Positions 4,732-30,631 of a DNA stretch of 30,631 bases are shown one piece after another. Numbering within the stretch: position 1 is the stretch's first letter; every line of letters begins with the position of its first letter. A program made the position numbers and the translations under genes. The DNA lies in the IMG/VR virus record IMGVR_UViG_3300032311_001075, positions 1-30,631 of that record. One strand, written 5' to 3'. The notes below the pieces were generated by a model that ran no database searches, was not told the DNA's origin, and saw nothing but the letters and a program-made list of their open reading frames with translations. The DNA comes from a virus.

Positions 4732-5745
4732 ATGAACAAATTAAACAAATTCGCAACTCAACCAACAGTTAGTTCAACCTACGCAGGTGAGTTCGCAGGA
4801 CAATACATCGCAGCAGCGTTGTTGTCAGCAAAAACATTAGATAACAAATATGTTACTATTCACCCTAACGTGAAGTACAAAGAAGTTATCCAAAGAATCG
4901 CAGTAGATGGTATCACTCAAGATGCATCTTGTGATTTCGTAACATCAGGAAGTGTTGCTTTAACTGAAGCAGTTTTGACTCCAAAAGAATTACAAGTTAA
5001 CTTACAATTATGTAAGCAACAATTCGTAGAATCTTGGGAAGCATTACAATTAGGTTATTCAGCATTTGATACTATTCCAGCATCATTCAATGATTACTTA
5101 ATCTCTTATGTAGGTGGTATTACTGCTCAAGCAACTGAACAATCTATTTGGACAGGTGTTACAACAACTAACGGACAATTCGGTGGTTTCCAACCAGCGT
5201 TATCCGCTTCAGTAGCTTCAGGAACAACAGTTGTTTCTGGCTCAATCACAGTTTCAACAGGTGTTATTCCTGCTTACTCTGGTTCAACTTTAATCGGTGG
5301 ACAACCAATCTCTGGAAGTATTACTTCTGCAAACGTTATTTCTAAATTAGATTTAATCGTAAACTCTATTCCAAATACAGTTTATGGTAAAGAAGATTTA
5401 TTATTGTATGTAGGTACAGGTGTTGCAAAAGCTTACCAACAAGCATTGGCAGGCGGTGCTATCGGAGCAAACGGATGGAACAATCAAATGAACGTTGGTG
5501 AAAAACCATTCAACTTCAATGGTATTGAAATCGTTCTTTGTCCTGGTATGGGTGCTAACGCAGTTGTAGCAGCACAAAAATCTAACTTACACTTCGGTAC
5601 TGGTTTGTTATCAGACTTCAACGAAGTAAGAGTATTGGATATGGCAAACATTGACGGTTCTCAAAATTACAGAATTATCATGAGATACACAGCTGGTACA
5701 GTTGTAGGTATCCCTGGTGATGTAGTTTACTACGGAGCATATTAA
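4732..5745 (+). CDS. Major capsid protein (337 aa)
   Basis: The N-terminal half matches the capsid family common in Bacteroidota siphophages: TYAGEFAGQYIAAALLSAKT, then NVKYKEVIQRIAVDG, LTPKELQVNLQLCKQQF and GYSAFDTIPASFNDYLISYV, then AEQ...IW (here ATEQSIWTGV). Length fits an HK97-fold shell protein without a long delta domain. A Ser/Gly/Thr-rich insertion around residues 155-200 may be surface-exposed. The gene follows the scaffold and is followed by a strong hairpin without a T-tract at 5764-5802. Codon choice looks cleaner than in neighbours, as expected for the most expressed virion gene. The assignment is by remembered family sequence plus context. Confidence 0.93.
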   Translation: MNKLNKFATQPTVSSTYAGEFAGQYIAAALLSAKTLDNKYVTIHPNVKYKEVIQRIAVDGITQDASCDFVTSGSVALTEAVLTPKELQVNLQLCKQQFVESWEALQLGYSAFDTIPASFNDYLISYVGGITAQATEQSIWTGVTTTNGQFGGFQPALSASVASGTTVVSGSITVSTGVIPAYSGSTLIGGQPISGSITSANVISKLDLIVNSIPNTVYGKEDLLLYVGTGVAKAYQQALAGGAIGANGWNNQMNVGEKPFNFNGIEIVLCPGMGANAVVAAQKSNLHFGTGLLSDFNEVRVLDMANIDGSQNYRIIMRYTAGTVVGIPGDVVYYGAY

Positions 5746-13022: not shown

Positions 13023-14576
13023 ATGGCACAAGTAAATAAAATATTCATACCAACTTACATCTCAAGCATAGATTACAAACCTGCTAGAGTGTTACCTCAT
13101 GTCTATTTTTACAATGGTACTAAATCTACTGATACTTTTTTTATACAAGGATATGTTAGCGGAAGTAAGAGTTCAATAACGTATGAGGCAATTGATAGAT
13201 TCCCATACTTTGATAACTATAATGGAAACACACCAACTACGGGTTCTAGAAGTTTATTATTTAATAATGAACCAACACCTTATGGTAGTATACCTAATGA
13301 ATCTCTTTTTTCAGAGTATTGGTCTACTTATGTTTCTCTCTTATATAATCCAAAAACAAGATTAATAGATGCATCAGCAATTATTCCTCTTGCGGATTAT
13401 TTCAAAATGGAACTGAATGATGTAGTTGAATGGAGAGGTAACTATTACCATCTTCGTGCAATTAATGATTATAATTTATCTAATGGTGAGTGTTCTTTAC
13501 AATTATTAGGACCAATTTTAGGTGATACTATTGGTGCAATATTTGGTGGAAGTTGTTTATTCGATTTCACATCATCTTTAATTACAACTACAACTACAAG
13601 TACCACAAGTACTACCACATTAGCTCCAACTACTACAACTACAACAGTTGCACCAACTACTACAACGACAACGGCTGGAACAACAACAACAACAACGGCT
13701 GGAACAACAACAACAACAACTTATTCAAATGATTTAACTTTATATGAATATTCACTAAATAGAGGTGGAGGTGGTAATGCTATATCATTCTTGGATTGGA
13801 CTGGTACTTTACAATATGGTCCAATGTCAAGTTTTGGTAATACTTACCGATTTATAGCTATAACTGGAACAGTTACACAACTAGAATCAGGTGGTATACT
13901 TACTATAATACAAAATCCAACATGGCCTACATTTACAAATTATGTATTTAATAAAACTGGTAGTGGTTTAACTAGATATACTCTACAATTAAATTCTGGC
14001 TCAATTCAAGCTGATACCGATAGTGGTAACTTTGGGTCAAGAACATATTGTGCTGTAACTAATACACCATTAGAAACTTGGGACCCATTAGGTAGAATGT
14101 ATATTGTAGCTACCACTCCTTGTACAGGCCCTGCACCTAATTTTACAACTACAACAAGTACAACAAGTACAACAAGTACAACAACCAGTACAAGTACTAC
14201 AACAACAACTACTGCTAGTCCTAATAAAAATTATTTCTTAGAAATAACAAGTAGTATTGATATTAATACCGGTTCAATGTTTGCAAATCCGTTTGACCCA
14301 TTGGGAACTACATTATATGCATTCGAAAATAGAGTTATACCAGCTGGAAATAATTTATTATCTGGAAGTGTAATATTGAATTATGCATATGATTATGAAA
14401 ATAGTGTAACTTTAAATTGGAATACGGCATCTACACAATCTGGTAGTTATGAATGGTATTATAATAATGTTTTATATAGCAGTGGTTCAATAAATGGAGC
14501 ACCACAATGGCAAATTAATTCTGCAAAACCTGAAGAAATATGGACAAATGTTAAATTAAAACTTATAATTACTTAA
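13023..14576 (+). CDS. Tail-tip protein with poly-Thr linkers and receptor-binding-type modules (517 aa)
   Basis: Residues 1-185 form a conserved tail-attachment domain (YNPKTRLIDASAIIPLADYF, then VVEWRGNYYHLRAINDYNL and LLGP). Then come a mucin-like linker at about 188-233 of repeated TTTTTT with AP, VAP and AG breaks, a globular beta module at about 234-373, a second Thr/Ser linker at about 374-400, and a C-terminal beta module with Ser/Asn-rich strands. The linkers are encoded by near-perfect ACA/ACT triplet repeats. The design (anchor, linker, module, linker, module) suggests an extended adhesin. The glycosyltransferase genes lie just downstream of its partner gene. The anchor is the best supported part; the binding role is inferred. 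Confidence 0.7.
   Translation: MAQVNKIFIPTYISSIDYKPARVLPHVYFYNGTKSTDTFFIQGYVSGSKSSITYEAIDRFPYFDNYNGNTPTTGSRSLLFNNEPTPYGSIPNESLFSEYWSTYVSLLYNPKTRLIDASAIIPLADYFKMELNDVVEWRGNYYHLRAINDYNLSNGECSLQLLGPILGDTIGAIFGGSCLFDFTSSLITTTTTSTTSTTTLAPTTTTTTVAPTTTTTTAGTTTTTTAGTTTTTTYSNDLTLYEYSLNRGGGGNAISFLDWTGTLQYGPMSSFGNTYRFIAITGTVTQLESGGILTIIQNPTWPTFTNYVFNKTGSGLTRYTLQLNSGSIQADTDSGNFGSRTYCAVTNTPLETWDPLGRMYIVATTPCTGPAPNFTTTTSTTSTTSTTTSTSTTTTTTASPNKNYFLEITSSIDINTGSMFANPFDPLGTTLYAFENRVIPAGNNLLSGSVILNYAYDYENSVTLNWNTASTQSGSYEWYYNNVLYSSGSINGAPQWQINSAKPEEIWTNVKLKLIIT
13583..13722 (+). repeat. ACA/ACT triplet-repeat tract encoding a poly-Thr linker
   Basis: About 140 bases made of ACA, ACT, ACG and AGT codons, including two near-identical copies of a GCTGGAACAACAACAACAAC block at 13673-13712. 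The repeat unit is a multiple of three, so slippage would change linker length without breaking the frame. Confidence 0.9.
14143..14218 (+). repeat. ACA-AGT triplet-repeat tract, second poly-Thr/Ser linker
   Basis: Repeated ACAAGT/ACAACA units encode alternating Thr and Ser between two globular modules of the 517-aa tail protein. Frame-neutral length variation is possible. Confidence 0.85.
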
Positions 14577-14578
14577 TT

Positions 14579-16150
14579 ATGGCAAACGTATATAGACAAA
14601 TAACATTAACGGAAAAAGGTTCTAATTCAGGACCTTTTTACGATGCATATTATTCATCAGATGGTGTTTCATATACTATATGTATAGATGGTAGTGCTAT
14701 TTATCTAAATACAATTGGTGCAACTGCTATTGTTACATTACCAGATACTGCGAATTATTTAAAATTAGTTAATTTAACTATTGGTTGTGGTGATAATGAT
14801 ATTATACAAGAATTATATCCTCCTACAACAACTACAACAAGTACAACAACTACAACAAGTACAACAACAACTACTGCAGCACCAACTACTACAACAACAA
14901 CATTTAGTTCAAATCCATGTATTTGTACTGAAGTTGTAGTAACATCAGCAGGTGGTGAAGTTGCAACATTCAATTGTTATGGTAGAAATGAGAACTACGT
15001 TTATATGAACGCTGGAACTTATTATTTATGTGCCGCTGAATTAGGTGGATTATTACAAGCTGAATTTATATCAGGCGCAGGAACTATTTCACCGGTTGGT
15101 AATTGTAAAACAAATACATGTCCTCCTACAACTACAACAACAACTCTATATCCTGGTGTATGTACAACTTATTACGTTTATGAGATTTTATGTGATGGTA
15201 GAACTGCCAGATATGGATATACTGATTGTCAAACAGGTGCAGCATTATCAGTAACAGTTAGTTCTTGTAATTCTCAAATGATTTGTAGTAGAACTATTCC
15301 AACTTTAATTAGTGGAAATAATGGAACAAGAAGTTATAGTACTGGTGGACGTTGTAATCCAATTACTACAACTACTACTACAGCTGCACCTACTACTACA
15401 ACAACAACAATTGCATGTGTAAATTGTGGAATAAATCAATTTGGAAGTTATTCACCGGCTGATTATTATCAATATCCAACAAGTTCTATTTGTAACGCAG
15501 TTTCATCAAGTAATAATTTACAATATTATGCTTATGATAGACCAAATAGATTTACACTATACGATTCAAGTGGATTTGTTACTTCTTCTGGTTGGGTTGG
15601 ATATGCATCTTATCCAGGACCGTGGGGTTCTTCATTAAGTGTAGACCCTGATGGAATTGTTCCATTCACATTTAATAGTGGAACAGGTAGATATATGTTA
15701 GTTGAAGCAGGGCCAGCAGACCCATCAAATCCTGTAAGTGATGCATATGAGTGGGTATTGGTTTGTCAAAATACAACTACAACTACAACAACTACTGCTC
15801 CTAGCTCAGCAACATTAGCATGGAGTTATAGTGAAACAGGTGGTGCAGCTGGAGAGATGGTATTATATATAAATGGTAGTGCAGTGGAAACAAGAAGTTC
15901 AACTGCATCAGGTACCCGTAATGTTTATCCAGGTGATACAATTTATGTAGATTTACAAATAGTAACTCCATGTGGTTCACCTGATACATACGCAAATGTT
16001 TACACAACGGGTAATATACTAAATGATGCAGATTGTGCTAATAATTCAGGTGTAGCTTTAACTACAGGAACATATACAGTAGTAAGTGGTGATGTAGGTA
16101 GTACATTAATTTTGAATACATTTGCACAATGTGATAGTGGATGTGTATAA
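14579..16150 (+). CDS. Second poly-Thr-linked tail adhesin with Cys-containing modules (523 aa)
   Basis: Starts 2 nt after the previous stop. Residues 1-80 form an N-terminal domain (ending in NDIIQELYPP), then five modules are separated by four Thr linkers at about residues 82-108, 181-189, 262-278 and 399-409. Linkers are TTTTTT runs with AAP or S breaks. Several modules contain paired cysteines (CICTEVVV, CTTYYVYEILCDG, ACVNCGINQFGSY, and a C-terminal DSGCV), suggesting small disulfide-stabilised beta domains. It probably forms a beads-on-a-string receptor-binding fibre with the preceding protein. I do not recognise individual modules; the last one (ATLAWSYSETGGAAGEMVLY onward) looks Ig-like. 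Confidence 0.65.
   Translation: MANVYRQITLTEKGSNSGPFYDAYYSSDGVSYTICIDGSAIYLNTIGATAIVTLPDTANYLKLVNLTIGCGDNDIIQELYPPTTTTTSTTTTTSTTTTTAAPTTTTTTFSSNPCICTEVVVTSAGGEVATFNCYGRNENYVYMNAGTYYLCAAELGGLLQAEFISGAGTISPVGNCKTNTCPPTTTTTTLYPGVCTTYYVYEILCDGRTARYGYTDCQTGAALSVTVSSCNSQMICSRTIPTLISGNNGTRSYSTGGRCNPITTTTTTAAPTTTTTTIACVNCGINQFGSYSPADYYQYPTSSICNAVSSSNNLQYYAYDRPNRFTLYDSSGFVTSSGWVGYASYPGPWGSSLSVDPDGIVPFTFNSGTGRYMLVEAGPADPSNPVSDAYEWVLVCQNTTTTTTTTAPSSATLAWSYSETGGAAGEMVLYINGSAVETRSSTASGTRNVYPGDTIYVDLQIVTPCGSPDTYANVYTTGNILNDADCANNSGVALTTGTYTVVSGDVGSTLILNTFAQCDSGCV
14823..14904 (+). repeat. ACA triplet-repeat tract (first linker of the 523-aa adhesin)
   Basis: Runs of ACAACAAGT and ACTACA encode Thr/Ser, broken by GCAGCACCA (AAP). 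Similar shorter tracts lie at 15124-15147, 15361-15412 and 15772-15797 in the same gene. Confidence 0.85.
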
Positions 16151-24501: not shown

Positions 24502-25257
24502 ATGGCAAAATCAAATCTTAAAAAAATCATTGGAAACAATGCACATTGGACTATTAATAAATCTATGTCCAGACAAATCGGTTTAACTGAAACTTTGGTA
24601 TTACAACATATCATAGATTTACAATCAGTATTTGAAAGAACTGAAATATTTCAACCTGTCAATGAAATGTCTGATGAATTATGTTTATCAGAGTATGCTA
24701 TCAAACAAGCAGTTGGTAGATTAAAATCATTAGGCCTGATTGATATCAAAAGAAAAAGTGTAGGATATAAAAACTTTTACTCAGTAAATGAAGAGGTAGT
24801 ATTAAATTATATGAATGGGGGCGTTCGATTCACCAGTGAGTCGAAAACTGCTCACCAGTTAGTCGAAGGGTCAGGTGAGTTGGAATCTTATCATGAGTTG
24901 GTTGAAAACTTACTCACCAGTGAGTCGAATACAACTTTGAGTGAGTCGAAAACTACCGCACTCAAGGATGAAAACTACCGCACTATTACTAATAATACTA
25001 CTAATAATACTTTACCAAAAATTAATACAAAGAATACTACTACTGGAGCAAATACTGATTCATCTAAAAATATAATTCAAAAAAGTATCTTAGATGTTTT
25101 AATTGATTATGATTCAGATAGTAAGAAGTATAATAACGCAATAGATGATTTTAATGAAATGGGTGGTATTGATGGTATCTCAGAATTAATGGAATGGGAT
25201 GAATCAATTAAATCTAAATGGAATCAGAAAATATTAAATGTATACGCAATTAAATAA
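24502..25257 (+). CDS. Winged-helix replication initiator (lambda O-like role) (251 aa)
   Basis: Residues 20-105 form a winged helix: TETLVLQHIIDLQSVFE, LCLSEYAIKQAVGRLKSLGL (recognition region), then IDIKRKSVGYKNFYSVNEEV for the wing. Residues 110-175 are a low-complexity linker (repeated SESKT/SESNT then Thr/Asn-rich) encoded by the DNA iterons at 24829-24984 and the AT-rich tract after them. The last 65 residues (IIQKSILDVLIDYDSDSKKY ...) are a separate helical domain that could contact a helicase loader. This order (DNA-binding domain, origin inside the linker, C-terminal contact domain) is that of lambda O. No helicase, primase or polymerase gene is visible, so the host's would be used. 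A transcription regulator is the alternative. Confidence 0.68.
   Translation: MAKSNLKKIIGNNAHWTINKSMSRQIGLTETLVLQHIIDLQSVFERTEIFQPVNEMSDELCLSEYAIKQAVGRLKSLGLIDIKRKSVGYKNFYSVNEEVVLNYMNGGVRFTSESKTAHQLVEGSGELESYHELVENLLTSESNTTLSESKTTALKDENYRTITNNTTNNTLPKINTKNTTTGANTDSSKNIIQKSILDVLIDYDSDSKKYNNAIDDFNEMGGIDGISELMEWDESIKSKWNQKILNVYAIK
24829..24984 (+). repeat. Iteron array inside the initiator gene (candidate replication origin)
   Basis: About seven direct units of 17-24 nt. Best copies are (C/T)TCACCAGTGAGTCGAA at 24829 and 24913 and CTCACCAGTTAGTCGAA at 24851; GTGAGTCGAA recurs at 24941 and degenerate copies occur near 24872, 24892 and 24959. GAAAACTACCGCACT is repeated exactly at 24948 and 24970, 22 nt apart. 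The start spacing near 21-22 nt would place sites on one face of the helix. CTCAC-CA-GTGAG within the unit is a 5-bp inverted repeat, suiting a dimeric winged helix. Unit boundaries are set by eye. Confidence 0.75.
24985..25060. other. AT-rich tract next to the iterons (candidate DNA-unwinding element)
   Basis: Directly after the last iteron, almost only A and T apart from scattered C and G. It includes two perfect tandem copies of ACTAATAATACT (24988-24999 and 25000-25011). In lambda and iteron plasmids the unwinding element lies beside the initiator sites in the same way. Melting is inferred from composition. Confidence 0.55.
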
Positions 25258-25275: not shown

Positions 25276-25512
25276 ATGGCAACAACACAATTAACTGATG
25301 AACAATTACAATTACATTACATCGAACTAAACTCAGAGAGATTTAATATTATTTGTAAAGCAACAGAAAAGAAACTTGAACAAATTGATAACAATTTTGT
25401 AAAAGAAGTATTAACCACTTGTTGGAAAGCAAGGAGAATAACATTCAAACAATTTAAAGTATTATGGAACTTTAACTCAAACGTAATACCAGAATATAGA
25501 GATTTTAACTAA
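25276..25512 (+). CDS. Small helical early protein, unknown (78 aa)
   Basis: Eighteen nt after the initiator gene. Helical and charged: LTDEQLQLHYIELNSERFNI, then CKATEKKLEQIDNNFVKEVL, ending WNFNSNVIPEYRDFN. Two single cysteines, no obvious metal motif. The position suggests a replication or host-takeover accessory. I do not recognise a family. Confidence 0.55.
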   Translation: MATTQLTDEQLQLHYIELNSERFNIICKATEKKLEQIDNNFVKEVLTTCWKARRITFKQFKVLWNFNSNVIPEYRDFN

Positions 25513-26532: not shown

Positions 26533-27086
26533 TGAGTACACAAAGTGAATGTCAGAGAAGATTAACAAATCTTTACAAAGAATCTCACGATTGGTTACTC
26601 AAAGCATCATTCAATATCACTCATGATACGGAAGAATCCGCTGATATGGTTGCAGAACTTTATCTTTATCTTAGTGAGAAATGTAATCCAAAGATATTTT
26701 GGGGTAAAGATTCATACAATCTCCTTTACTTACATCAGTTTCTAAAACATCGTTGGTATAATAAAACACCAAAGTTAAACAAATCAGTATCATTCTCATC
26801 ACTTACACACGAAAAGGATTTCAAATGGATTGCAGATGAAGAATATGATTTAGAAAGTGATATATCGATGATGAAAGCATATGATGATGTTATTATTGAA
26901 TTGAAAGCATTACAAACAACAAAACTTTGGCCTAAAGCAAGAATCTATGAATTATATTGGATGAGCCCCGATACTCTTAAAGAAGTGGCAAACAAAATAG
27001 GAATATCTTCATCCACAACATTCATAGCAATAAAACGAATAAGACAACATTTAGCGAACACAATCAAAAACCCATTTAAAATATGA
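26532..27086 (+). CDS. Sigma-factor-like transcription regulator (184 aa)
   Basis: The ESADMVAELYLYLSEK segment (about 36-51) resembles sigma region 2.1, FLKHRWYN the following helix, and the C-terminal domain (RIYELYWMSPDTLKEVANKI, then GISSSTTFIAIKRIRQHLA) a region-4 helix-turn-helix for the -35 element. The acidic linker (about 100-120) separates them. Length fits an ECF-type factor. The likely job is to direct host RNA polymerase to virion promoters, for which the TGTTATAT-type motifs are candidates. ATGA overlap (27083-27086) joins it to the HNH gene. Confidence 0.68.
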   Translation: MSTQSECQRRLTNLYKESHDWLLKASFNITHDTEESADMVAELYLYLSEKCNPKIFWGKDSYNLLYLHQFLKHRWYNKTPKLNKSVSFSSLTHEKDFKWIADEEYDLESDISMMKAYDDVIIELKALQTTKLWPKARIYELYWMSPDTLKEVANKIGISSSTTFIAIKRIRQHLANTIKNPFKI

Positions 27087-27490
27087 AAGAAGAAATATGG
27101 AAATCAGTAGAAGGTTACGACATCTACGAAATATCAAATCTCGGTAGAGTAAAGAGTTTAGCAAGAGATACACGTGTAGGTAATAGAGGTGGTATCAAAC
27201 ACAGACCTGAATTTATAATGAAAGGATGTGATTTTGGTTATGAGTATCTTAAAGTTAATTTAAAAACCAATACCGGTAAGATAAATAATGTAAAGGTACA
27301 TAGATTAGTTGCACAACACTTTATCCCTAATCCAGAAAACAAACGTTGCGTTAATCACAAAGATTTCAATCGTTGTAACAATGATGTAGATAATTTAGAG
27401 TGGGTAACACACGCAGAGAATAATAAACACCAAAGAGATGCAGGTAGACATAGTAATGGTAGAGGAAAGAATAAAAAACCAATTCAATAA
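27083..27490 (+). CDS. NUMOD4/HNH endonuclease (135 aa)
   Basis: Residues 1-30 (EIWKSVEGYDIYEISNLGRV) form a NUMOD4 DNA-binding motif typical of free-standing homing endonucleases. Residues 74-120 form an HNH nuclease: VHRLVAQHFIPNPENKR, CVNHKDFNRCNNDVDNLEWV (His, Asn) and a following THAENNKH (His). It is joined to the sigma-like gene by an ATGA overlap and to the next gene by TAATG at 27490. No intron or intein is visible around it. Cleaves DNA, target unknown; a role in packaging as for some phage HNH proteins near terminases is possible but this one is about 0.6 kb from the small terminase. Confidence 0.85.
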   Translation: MKEEIWKSVEGYDIYEISNLGRVKSLARDTRVGNRGGIKHRPEFIMKGCDFGYEYLKVNLKTNTGKINNVKVHRLVAQHFIPNPENKRCVNHKDFNRCNNDVDNLEWVTHAENNKHQRDAGRHSNGRGKNKKPIQ

Positions 27491-29916: not shown

Positions 29917-30570
29917 ATGAGAGAACAATTAGAAATTGTAATACCTACCGATTGGAGTGATATTACATTAAGACAGTATTTGGATTTGCAAAAGGATTTA
30001 GAATCATACAAAGATGATACTAAGGCACAAGAAGCATTCCTTCTCCTACACTTATGTGGTTTAGATGGTGAGAAGATTGGGAAACTAACTACTGTATCAT
30101 ACAATGAGTTAATCAGTAACATATCAAATCTATTTAAGAATAGAGAACATAATCTTCAGACATCAGTTAAATTTGGTGATACTGATTATGGATTCGAACC
30201 TAACCTATCTAAGATGTCTTATGGTGCATATGTGGATATCAGTAAATACGAATCCATTGCAATAGATGATAATTGGTCACAGATAATGAATATCCTATAT
30301 AGACCAATAGAAAAGGTATTTAAGGGTTACTATACCATCAAACAATATGATGGTAATCTCGATAATCAGAAATGGTATGATGTTACAATGGATGTTCACT
30401 TTGGTGCATACTTTTTTTTTGTTCGTTTGTTAAAGGGCTTACAGAACTCTACCCTGAACTCTACGATGCAGACTTCGGAGATTCCTCACAGCATCAAATC
30501 AATTTTGGAAAAAAGTGGAAAGCTTATCCAACAATCGTACAGTTGGCAGGAGGAGATATTCAAAAAATAG
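29917..30570 (+). CDS. Tail assembly chaperone, frame-0 product (G-like, 217 aa)
   Basis: The N-terminal 160 residues match a chaperone family of Bacteroidota phages in my memory: IVIPTDWSDITLRQYLDLQK, VKFGDTDYGFEPNLSKMSYG, YVDISKYES and NIMNILYRPIE, then a HFGAYFFF segment. A run of nine T at 30412-30420 encodes FFF. In frame 0 the protein continues for 50 further residues (VRLLKGLQNSTLNSTM...) to 30570. The -1 frame, open from 30381, continues instead past the window end to 175. This is the G / G-T layout of tail chaperones. The other reading is a lost T in the assembly. Confidence 0.72.
   Translation: MREQLEIVIPTDWSDITLRQYLDLQKDLESYKDDTKAQEAFLLLHLCGLDGEKIGKLTTVSYNELISNISNLFKNREHNLQTSVKFGDTDYGFEPNLSKMSYGAYVDISKYESIAIDDNWSQIMNILYRPIEKVFKGYYTIKQYDGNLDNQKWYDVTMDVHFGAYFFFVRLLKGLQNSTLNSTMQTSEIPHSIKSILEKSGKLIQQSYSWQEEIFKK
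30412..30420 (+). promoter_or_regulatory. T9 slippery site (candidate -1 frameshift)
   Basis: Frame-0 codons are TAC TTT TTT TTT GTT, so the last seven T form T_TTT_TTT, a perfect N_NNW_WWH heptamer. A -1 slip re-reads the last T as TGT and gives CSFVKGLTELYPELYDADFG in the -1 frame. No strong downstream stem is obvious; a short AGGG/CCCT pairing starts about 13 nt after the run. Ten T in the true genome would give the same fusion without slippage. Confidence 0.6.
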
Positions 30571-30631
30571 ATTCGGTAGTATTAGAACCATTAGAAAAGT
30601 GTTTATTATTCCTTGCATATCAATCAGATAA
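30420..30631 (+). CDS. -1 frame extension of the tail chaperone (GT-like), runs off the window end
   Basis: From the T9 run this frame stays open to 30631 and, through the 123-bp overlap, to the stop at 175. The protein (CSFVKGLTELYPELYDADFG, then QINFGKKWKAYPTIVQLAGG) is as well conserved-looking as the upstream part, while the parallel frame-0 end looks less so. The joined fusion would be about 255 aa. In lambda-type systems the rare fusion is needed for tail assembly with the tape measure. Confidence 0.65.
30509..30631. repeat. Direct terminal repeat, right copy (circular overlap)
   Basis: Identical to 1-123. The junction falls inside the chaperone gene, so the window cuts this gene in two. 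When the circle is closed the -1 frame reads through without interruption. Confidence 0.95.

Follow-up and report, generated by a model that had tools for sequence, protein, structure and literature searches.

The iteron of phage lambda is an inverted repeat bound by a dimer of the O protein, and origins of the RepA/TrfA type in iteron plasmids carry their iterons outside the rep coding sequence, often together with DnaA boxes. In lambda, O contains four iterons, each an 18-bp inverted repeat, together with an AT-rich region of 39 bp (PMC6022878); Stx phages carry six iterons in the O gene (PMC7466680), and oriL of phage SPP1 is located within gene 38 and is made of direct repeats and an AT-rich unwinding element (PMC6316719). 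No relevant description of an embedded origin in Flavobacterium or Bacteroidetes phages was found in the open-access literature. The initiator-embedded design is already known from lambda and SPP1, and the locus analyzed here adds another case: a repeat array and the AT-rich tract that follows it are, very likely, a replication origin of the lambda/SPP1 style embedded in the gene of its own initiator.

The following features are referred to throughout; the window is the whole stretch of DNA that was analyzed (30,631 nucleotides).

1 to 30631: the whole virus record (30631 bases); its two ends, 1-123 and 30509-30631, form a direct repeat of 123 bp
24502 to 25257, + strand: replication initiator gene, O-like, 251 aa (PHROGs match and AF2 model)
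24514 to 24813, + strand: predicted winged-helix DNA-binding domain, aa 5-104 (AF2 pLDDT 83-95 over aa 21-100, weaker for the first 20 residues)
24826 to 25056, + strand: linker predicted to be disordered, aa 109-185 (pLDDT below 50 over 109-185), encoded by the DNA proposed as the origin
24983 to 25042, + strand: AT-rich tract, with tandem 12-mers at 24987-25011 (TACTAATAATAC, twice) and a 60-mer duplex instability at the 99.99th percentile
25054 to 25251, + strand: predicted C-terminal four-helix domain (AF2 pLDDT 83)
25276 to 25512, + strand: small ORF of 78 aa, sitting where lambda has P

Because the 123-bp repeat stands at both ends, the record most probably represents a whole genome, circularly closed and about 30.5 kb long, and its recognized phage genes are all on the + strand. 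Relatives of its terminase were found in 70 viral contigs, and the best matches among isolated phages are phages of Phocaeicola, Bacteroides and related hosts, which suggests that the host probably belongs to the Bacteroidota. Elsewhere in the genome, two long structural-looking genes at 13023-16150 are rich in poly-threonine (ACA/ACT) tracts, and a NUMOD4/HNH endonuclease ORF is present at 27083-27490 among small early genes; the same region in relatives contains many HNH- and GIY-YIG-looking ORFs. A small protein encoded at 23619-23852 matches the phage ribosomal protein S21 family (phrog_21469, E 6e-11), and small ORFs resembling it are seen upstream of the initiator slot in relatives such as the loci L103, L010 and L005.

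The product of the initiator gene weakly matches PHROGs families of replication initiation and O-like proteins (phrog_428, E 3e-8; phrog_9773, E 4e-7; phrog_391, E 5e-6), and phrog_428 and phrog_9773 also match 19 of 20 homologues; by these profile matches the protein appears to be a weakly O-like member of the group. In agreement with the earlier note, by which the product begins with a winged helix, the AF2 model has a winged-helix domain at aa 5-104, followed by a disordered linker and a helical C-terminal domain. Structural neighbors of the winged helix include the DnaD N-domain, the primosomal DnaB N-domain, the initiator 4pt7 and the Rep-DNA complex 5kbj, as well as a gpO N-terminal protein and a putative replication protein O among predicted viral proteins. 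As the winged helix is a common fold, these neighbors support DNA binding by the modeled domain and are no proof of family membership; the domain is presumably the iteron binder. The C-terminal domain (identities of 65, 61, 48, 29 and 29% in relatives) is presumed to be the part that recruits helicase or primosome, and a fold search with it gave weak helical-bundle matches only (Z up to 5.5, bS20) and no helicase-binding fold. The predicted linker, codons 109-185, coincides with the repeat array and the AT-rich tract, which gives the order known from lambda: winged helix, iterons, AT-rich tract, C-terminal domain.

The array is made of the following units.

24830 to 24849, + strand: unit 1 (TCACCAGTGAGTCGAAAACT), paired with an inverted half-site at 24824-24833
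24852 to 24871, + strand: unit 2, in a reading frame that differs from that of unit 1
24869 to 24888, + strand: unit 3, starting 17 nt after unit 2
24891 to 24910, + strand: unit 4, in the frame of unit 2 and not of units 1 and 3
24914 to 24933, + strand: unit 5, with a perfect CTCACCAGTGAG dyad at 24913-24924
24935 to 24954, + strand: unit 6
24957 to 24976, + strand: unit 7, degenerate, placed by the aligned unit 7 of L076 (core 6 of 11 off in the window)

Together these span 24830-24976 with spacings of 22-17-22-23-21-22, and unit 7, degenerate in the window, is clear in the relatives L076 and L103. The core of the unit is AGTGAGTTGAA (window version AGTGAGTCGAA), and the array is composed mainly of direct half-sites of 10-11 bp. 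The 15-mer CACCAGTGAGTCGAA is found exactly at 24831 and 24915 and with one mismatch at 24853; when up to 3 mismatches are allowed, there are 4 matches in the whole window, all within 24824-24929, against an expectation of 0.48 and a shuffle maximum of 2 (n=100). The earlier note had reported about seven direct units of roughly 22 nt with an inner CTCAC-CA-GTGAG inverted repeat. The array itself is real, with six clear units and the degenerate one, but its spacing is uneven, having one 17-nt step; the inverted repeat is perfect at 24913-24924 and has one mismatch at 24829 and 24851, but is not evident in units 3, 4, 6 and 7. Palindromes of 22 bp are not significantly enriched, as 38 of 500 synonymous shuffles reach the observed count, and a whole-iteron palindrome was rejected as a general rule for this reason. 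Single-stranded DNA folding of the array was also considered and is not compelling (z -1.9).

In comparison to lambda O and its origin, both loci have iterons inside the initiator gene (codons 117-144 in lambda, 110-158 in the window) in more than one frame, both have an AT-rich tract downstream, and both pass the shuffle test described below (PMC6022878, PMC7466680). They differ in that lambda has four 18-bp inverted repeats where the window has seven mainly direct units of about 22 nt with another motif, and the dyad symmetry of the window units is incomplete, being perfect in one unit and near-perfect in two. The window protein also has a weak, family-level similarity to O, is accompanied by no recognizable P-type loader gene, and probably belongs to a phage of the Bacteroidota, as judged from its terminase. 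In the Stx phages P27 and 933W, too, the O gene has over four iterons, and the extra ones lengthen the protein (PMC7466680); however, their six iterons are of the lambda type and their O and P are lambdoid. SPP1 oriL shares the direct repeats and the AT-rich unwinding element inside the initiator gene (PMC6316719), whereas the loader gp39, the helicase gp40 and the second origin oriR of that phage have no counterpart found in the window.

Repeats of this kind could in principle exist at the level of the protein, as part of a low-complexity, disordered linker rich in SES, Thr and Asn, the DNA itself having no function. Disordered linkers rich in Ser, Thr and Asn are common in phage initiators, and the window linker is predicted to be disordered, has this composition and is the least conserved segment of the initiator. 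The units, however, lie in different frames and encode different peptides: units 1, 3, 5 and 6 encode SESKT, GELES, SESNT and SESKT, respectively, and units 2, 4 and 7, in another frame, encode QLVEG, ELVEN and LKDEN. When synonymous codons were permuted within the gene so that protein and codon use were kept (200 shuffles), the repeats were not reproduced; the initiator gene holds 62 repeat pairs compared to a shuffle mean of 6.9, and 31 out-of-frame pairs compared to 2.7, and 0/200 shuffles reach either value. The out-of-frame count is likewise unreached (0/200) in L076, L077, L078, L075, L080, L083 and L103. As a positive control, lambda O gave 39 pairs with 36 out of frame (0/200), while lambda P, the negative control, gave no out-of-frame signal; when 154 genes from 12 related phages were scored, the top three values all belonged to initiators (those of the window, L018 and L037). 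Relatives, moreover, alter the peptide and retain the DNA unit, so that a protein-level explanation, already contradicted by the frames, has almost no probability.

In pairwise comparisons of relatives with the window, amino acid identity is 38-42% in the linker/array segment and 63-74% in the winged helix, and third-position identity in the array segment is not clearly lower. Among codons in which the amino acid changes, the third position is identical in 49% of array codons versus about 37% in the two folded domains, a contrast with a Fisher p of 0.009 in pairwise comparisons that are not independent. In units 1 and 5 of L077, the AGTGAGT motif is kept with its frame shifted, the codons being GTG AGT in place of the AGT GAG of the window and L076, which changes S-E to V-S. 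These comparisons support the view, put forward in the earlier note, that the linker peptide is a by-product of a function at the DNA level, as the frames alternate (SESKT versus QLVE) and the units are kept while the linker residues diverge. None of the close homologues keeps the linker peptide while losing the DNA repeats, a pattern that would speak against an origin; they show the reverse.

After the array, at 24984-25045, the AT content reaches 81%; the array itself has 57% and the genome as a whole 67%. In duplex stability, the 60-mer at 24983 ranks with the lowest three of the genome. The AT-rich tract and the tandem 12-mers at 24987-25011 noticed earlier are borne out, right after the array. 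The tract is presumed to be the DNA unwinding element; its codons are largely conserved in L076, L103 and L077, and in every relative compared such a tract adjoins the array on the downstream side. In plasmids, Rep proteins with a winged helix bind one of the strands of AT-tract repeats (PMC4081077), and by analogy a similar role is plausible for the 12-mers; as DnaA-trios, the TACTAATAATAC repeats would be a weak fit only.

The units might also be initiator sites that serve control (autorepression, copy control, or a switch from theta to late replication), the true origin lying elsewhere. Sites of the iteron type can serve control in iteron replicons, and the array is placed about 330 bp into the gene, where a bound protein could be a roadblock. 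A further point for control is that initiator sites are present at both of the two SPP1 origins (PMC6316719). Such a role is nevertheless improbable: the adjacent AT-rich tract ranks with the lowest 60-mers of the genome in stability, an AT-rich tract follows the array in relatives too, the genome-wide motif scan found no second motif cluster, and the seven top-scoring + strand sites of the genome are all inside the initiator gene.

The proposed embedded origin can also be followed in the few close homologues that could be compared. L076, L103 and L077 (63, 57 and 53% amino acid identity to the window, respectively) have seven units each at the corresponding place; the spacings are identical to those of the window in L076 and L103 and are 23-17-22-22-22-22 in L077, a conservation that follows in part from the absence of indels between the homologues. 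More distant are L037/L080 and L075, which are 34% and 32% identical to the window and 66% to each other; these have their own version of the unit, near CAAGNCAGTGGAAAATCA, in a similar layout with an AT-rich tract after the array. Arrays are also carried by L078 and L083, the unit of the latter being near GTACNACTAGTAGTACCCC. By sequence comparison, the units, frames, spacing and AT-rich tract are conserved as DNA, and the initiator is identified at the level of its family. The core differs among initiator subgroups (GTGAGTTGAA, CAGTGGAAAATCA, ACTAGTAGT), as is expected if the initiator reads the array. Direct-repeat arrays are also found at packaging (pac), partition and recombination sites, and the array could be one of these that lies in the gene by chance; this is highly unlikely in view of the dependence of the core on the initiator subgroup, the position of the array within the initiator gene and ahead of an AT-rich tract in relatives, and the distance of about 3 kb to the terminase gene.

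The arrangement is not universal in the protein family. The winged-helix domain of Flavobacterium phage Fpv5 is homologous to that of the window (27%), as is that of Eggerthella phage PMBT5 (32% to L037), but no significant embedded array was detected by the shuffle test in the Fpv5 group, L084, L085, L086 or PMBT5, and origins there must be elsewhere or less regular. In the Fpv5 group and L084-L086, the winged helix is the same but the linker is shorter, as fits a linker length that follows the origin. A DnaC-like loader adjoins the initiator in a related subgroup (e.g., L084) and in PMBT5, a further difference from the window. No relatives turned up when phages were searched at the DNA level, or plasmids and genome contigs at the protein level.

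With an O-like initiator, the lambda order and conservation at the DNA level, the proposal of the earlier note that the phage replicates from this site through the protein encoded by the same DNA is supported. In the proposed mechanism, the winged helix of the encoded protein would bind the seven units of about 22 bp, the nucleoprotein complex would melt the adjoining AT-rich tract, and the C-terminal helical domain would recruit the host helicase and primase or primosome; these steps, and origin activity itself, are inferred from sequence and model. Cumulative GC skew, named in the earlier note as a check, does not point to 24.9 kb (detrended minimum at 15.6 kb, maximum at 2.3 kb), and is judged uninformative because the recognized genes are all on one strand. 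No DnaA box TTATNCACA (up to 1 mismatch) is present between 23.7 and 26.3 kb, and there are fewer genome-wide than expected by chance. An iteron plasmid origin of the RepA/TrfA type was considered and does not fit, the array being inside the gene and without DnaA boxes nearby. Among the ORFs scanned, which are part of those in the genome, no helicase, loader, primase or polymerase was recognized; the 78-aa ORF downstream of the initiator has no homologue in the loci of the compared relatives and no PHROG or Pfam match to a loader. A diverged loader gene may be present.

In this family of phages of about 30 kb, initiators of several unrelated types occupy the slot upstream of the terminase. An initiator type unrelated to that of the window is found in the same slot at L018:6028-6789 and L033:110-748, with 11-nt units TATTGATACCC in different frames, which makes it another candidate for an embedded origin; the two are 49% identical and have the same core, and L018 passes the shuffle test while L033 alone does not (8/200 on out-of-frame pairs). 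A replication gene of another type, in L010, has a run of 7-nt units (AGAGTAC / AGAGATA) at 4852-4904 and a borderline shuffle test (4/200); these units are unlikely to be protein-level as 7 is not a multiple of 3. By the same test, L005 and the DUF1376-like L023 and L026 have in-frame repeats only, and L002 has no repeats. From this comparison of sequences, embedded origins are suggested, although not proven, to recur in unrelated initiators. It is conceivable, if somewhat doubtful, that the replication slot is an exchangeable cassette in which at least two initiator types have their own arrays, initiator and origin moving together, the window type being free of a loader and using host proteins alone.

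The origin proposed here would extend the lambda/SPP1 design to probable Bacteroidota phages, a lineage that has been sequenced but not studied, and it provides a clean comparative case in which the linker drifts as a peptide and selection acts on the coding DNA itself. The codon-preserving test for out-of-frame repeats, which singled out initiators among 154 genes and recovered lambda O, may be a simple way to find embedded origins. The presence of arrays in two unrelated initiator types of one slot suggests that an origin and initiator in one piece may be favored when replication modules are swapped.
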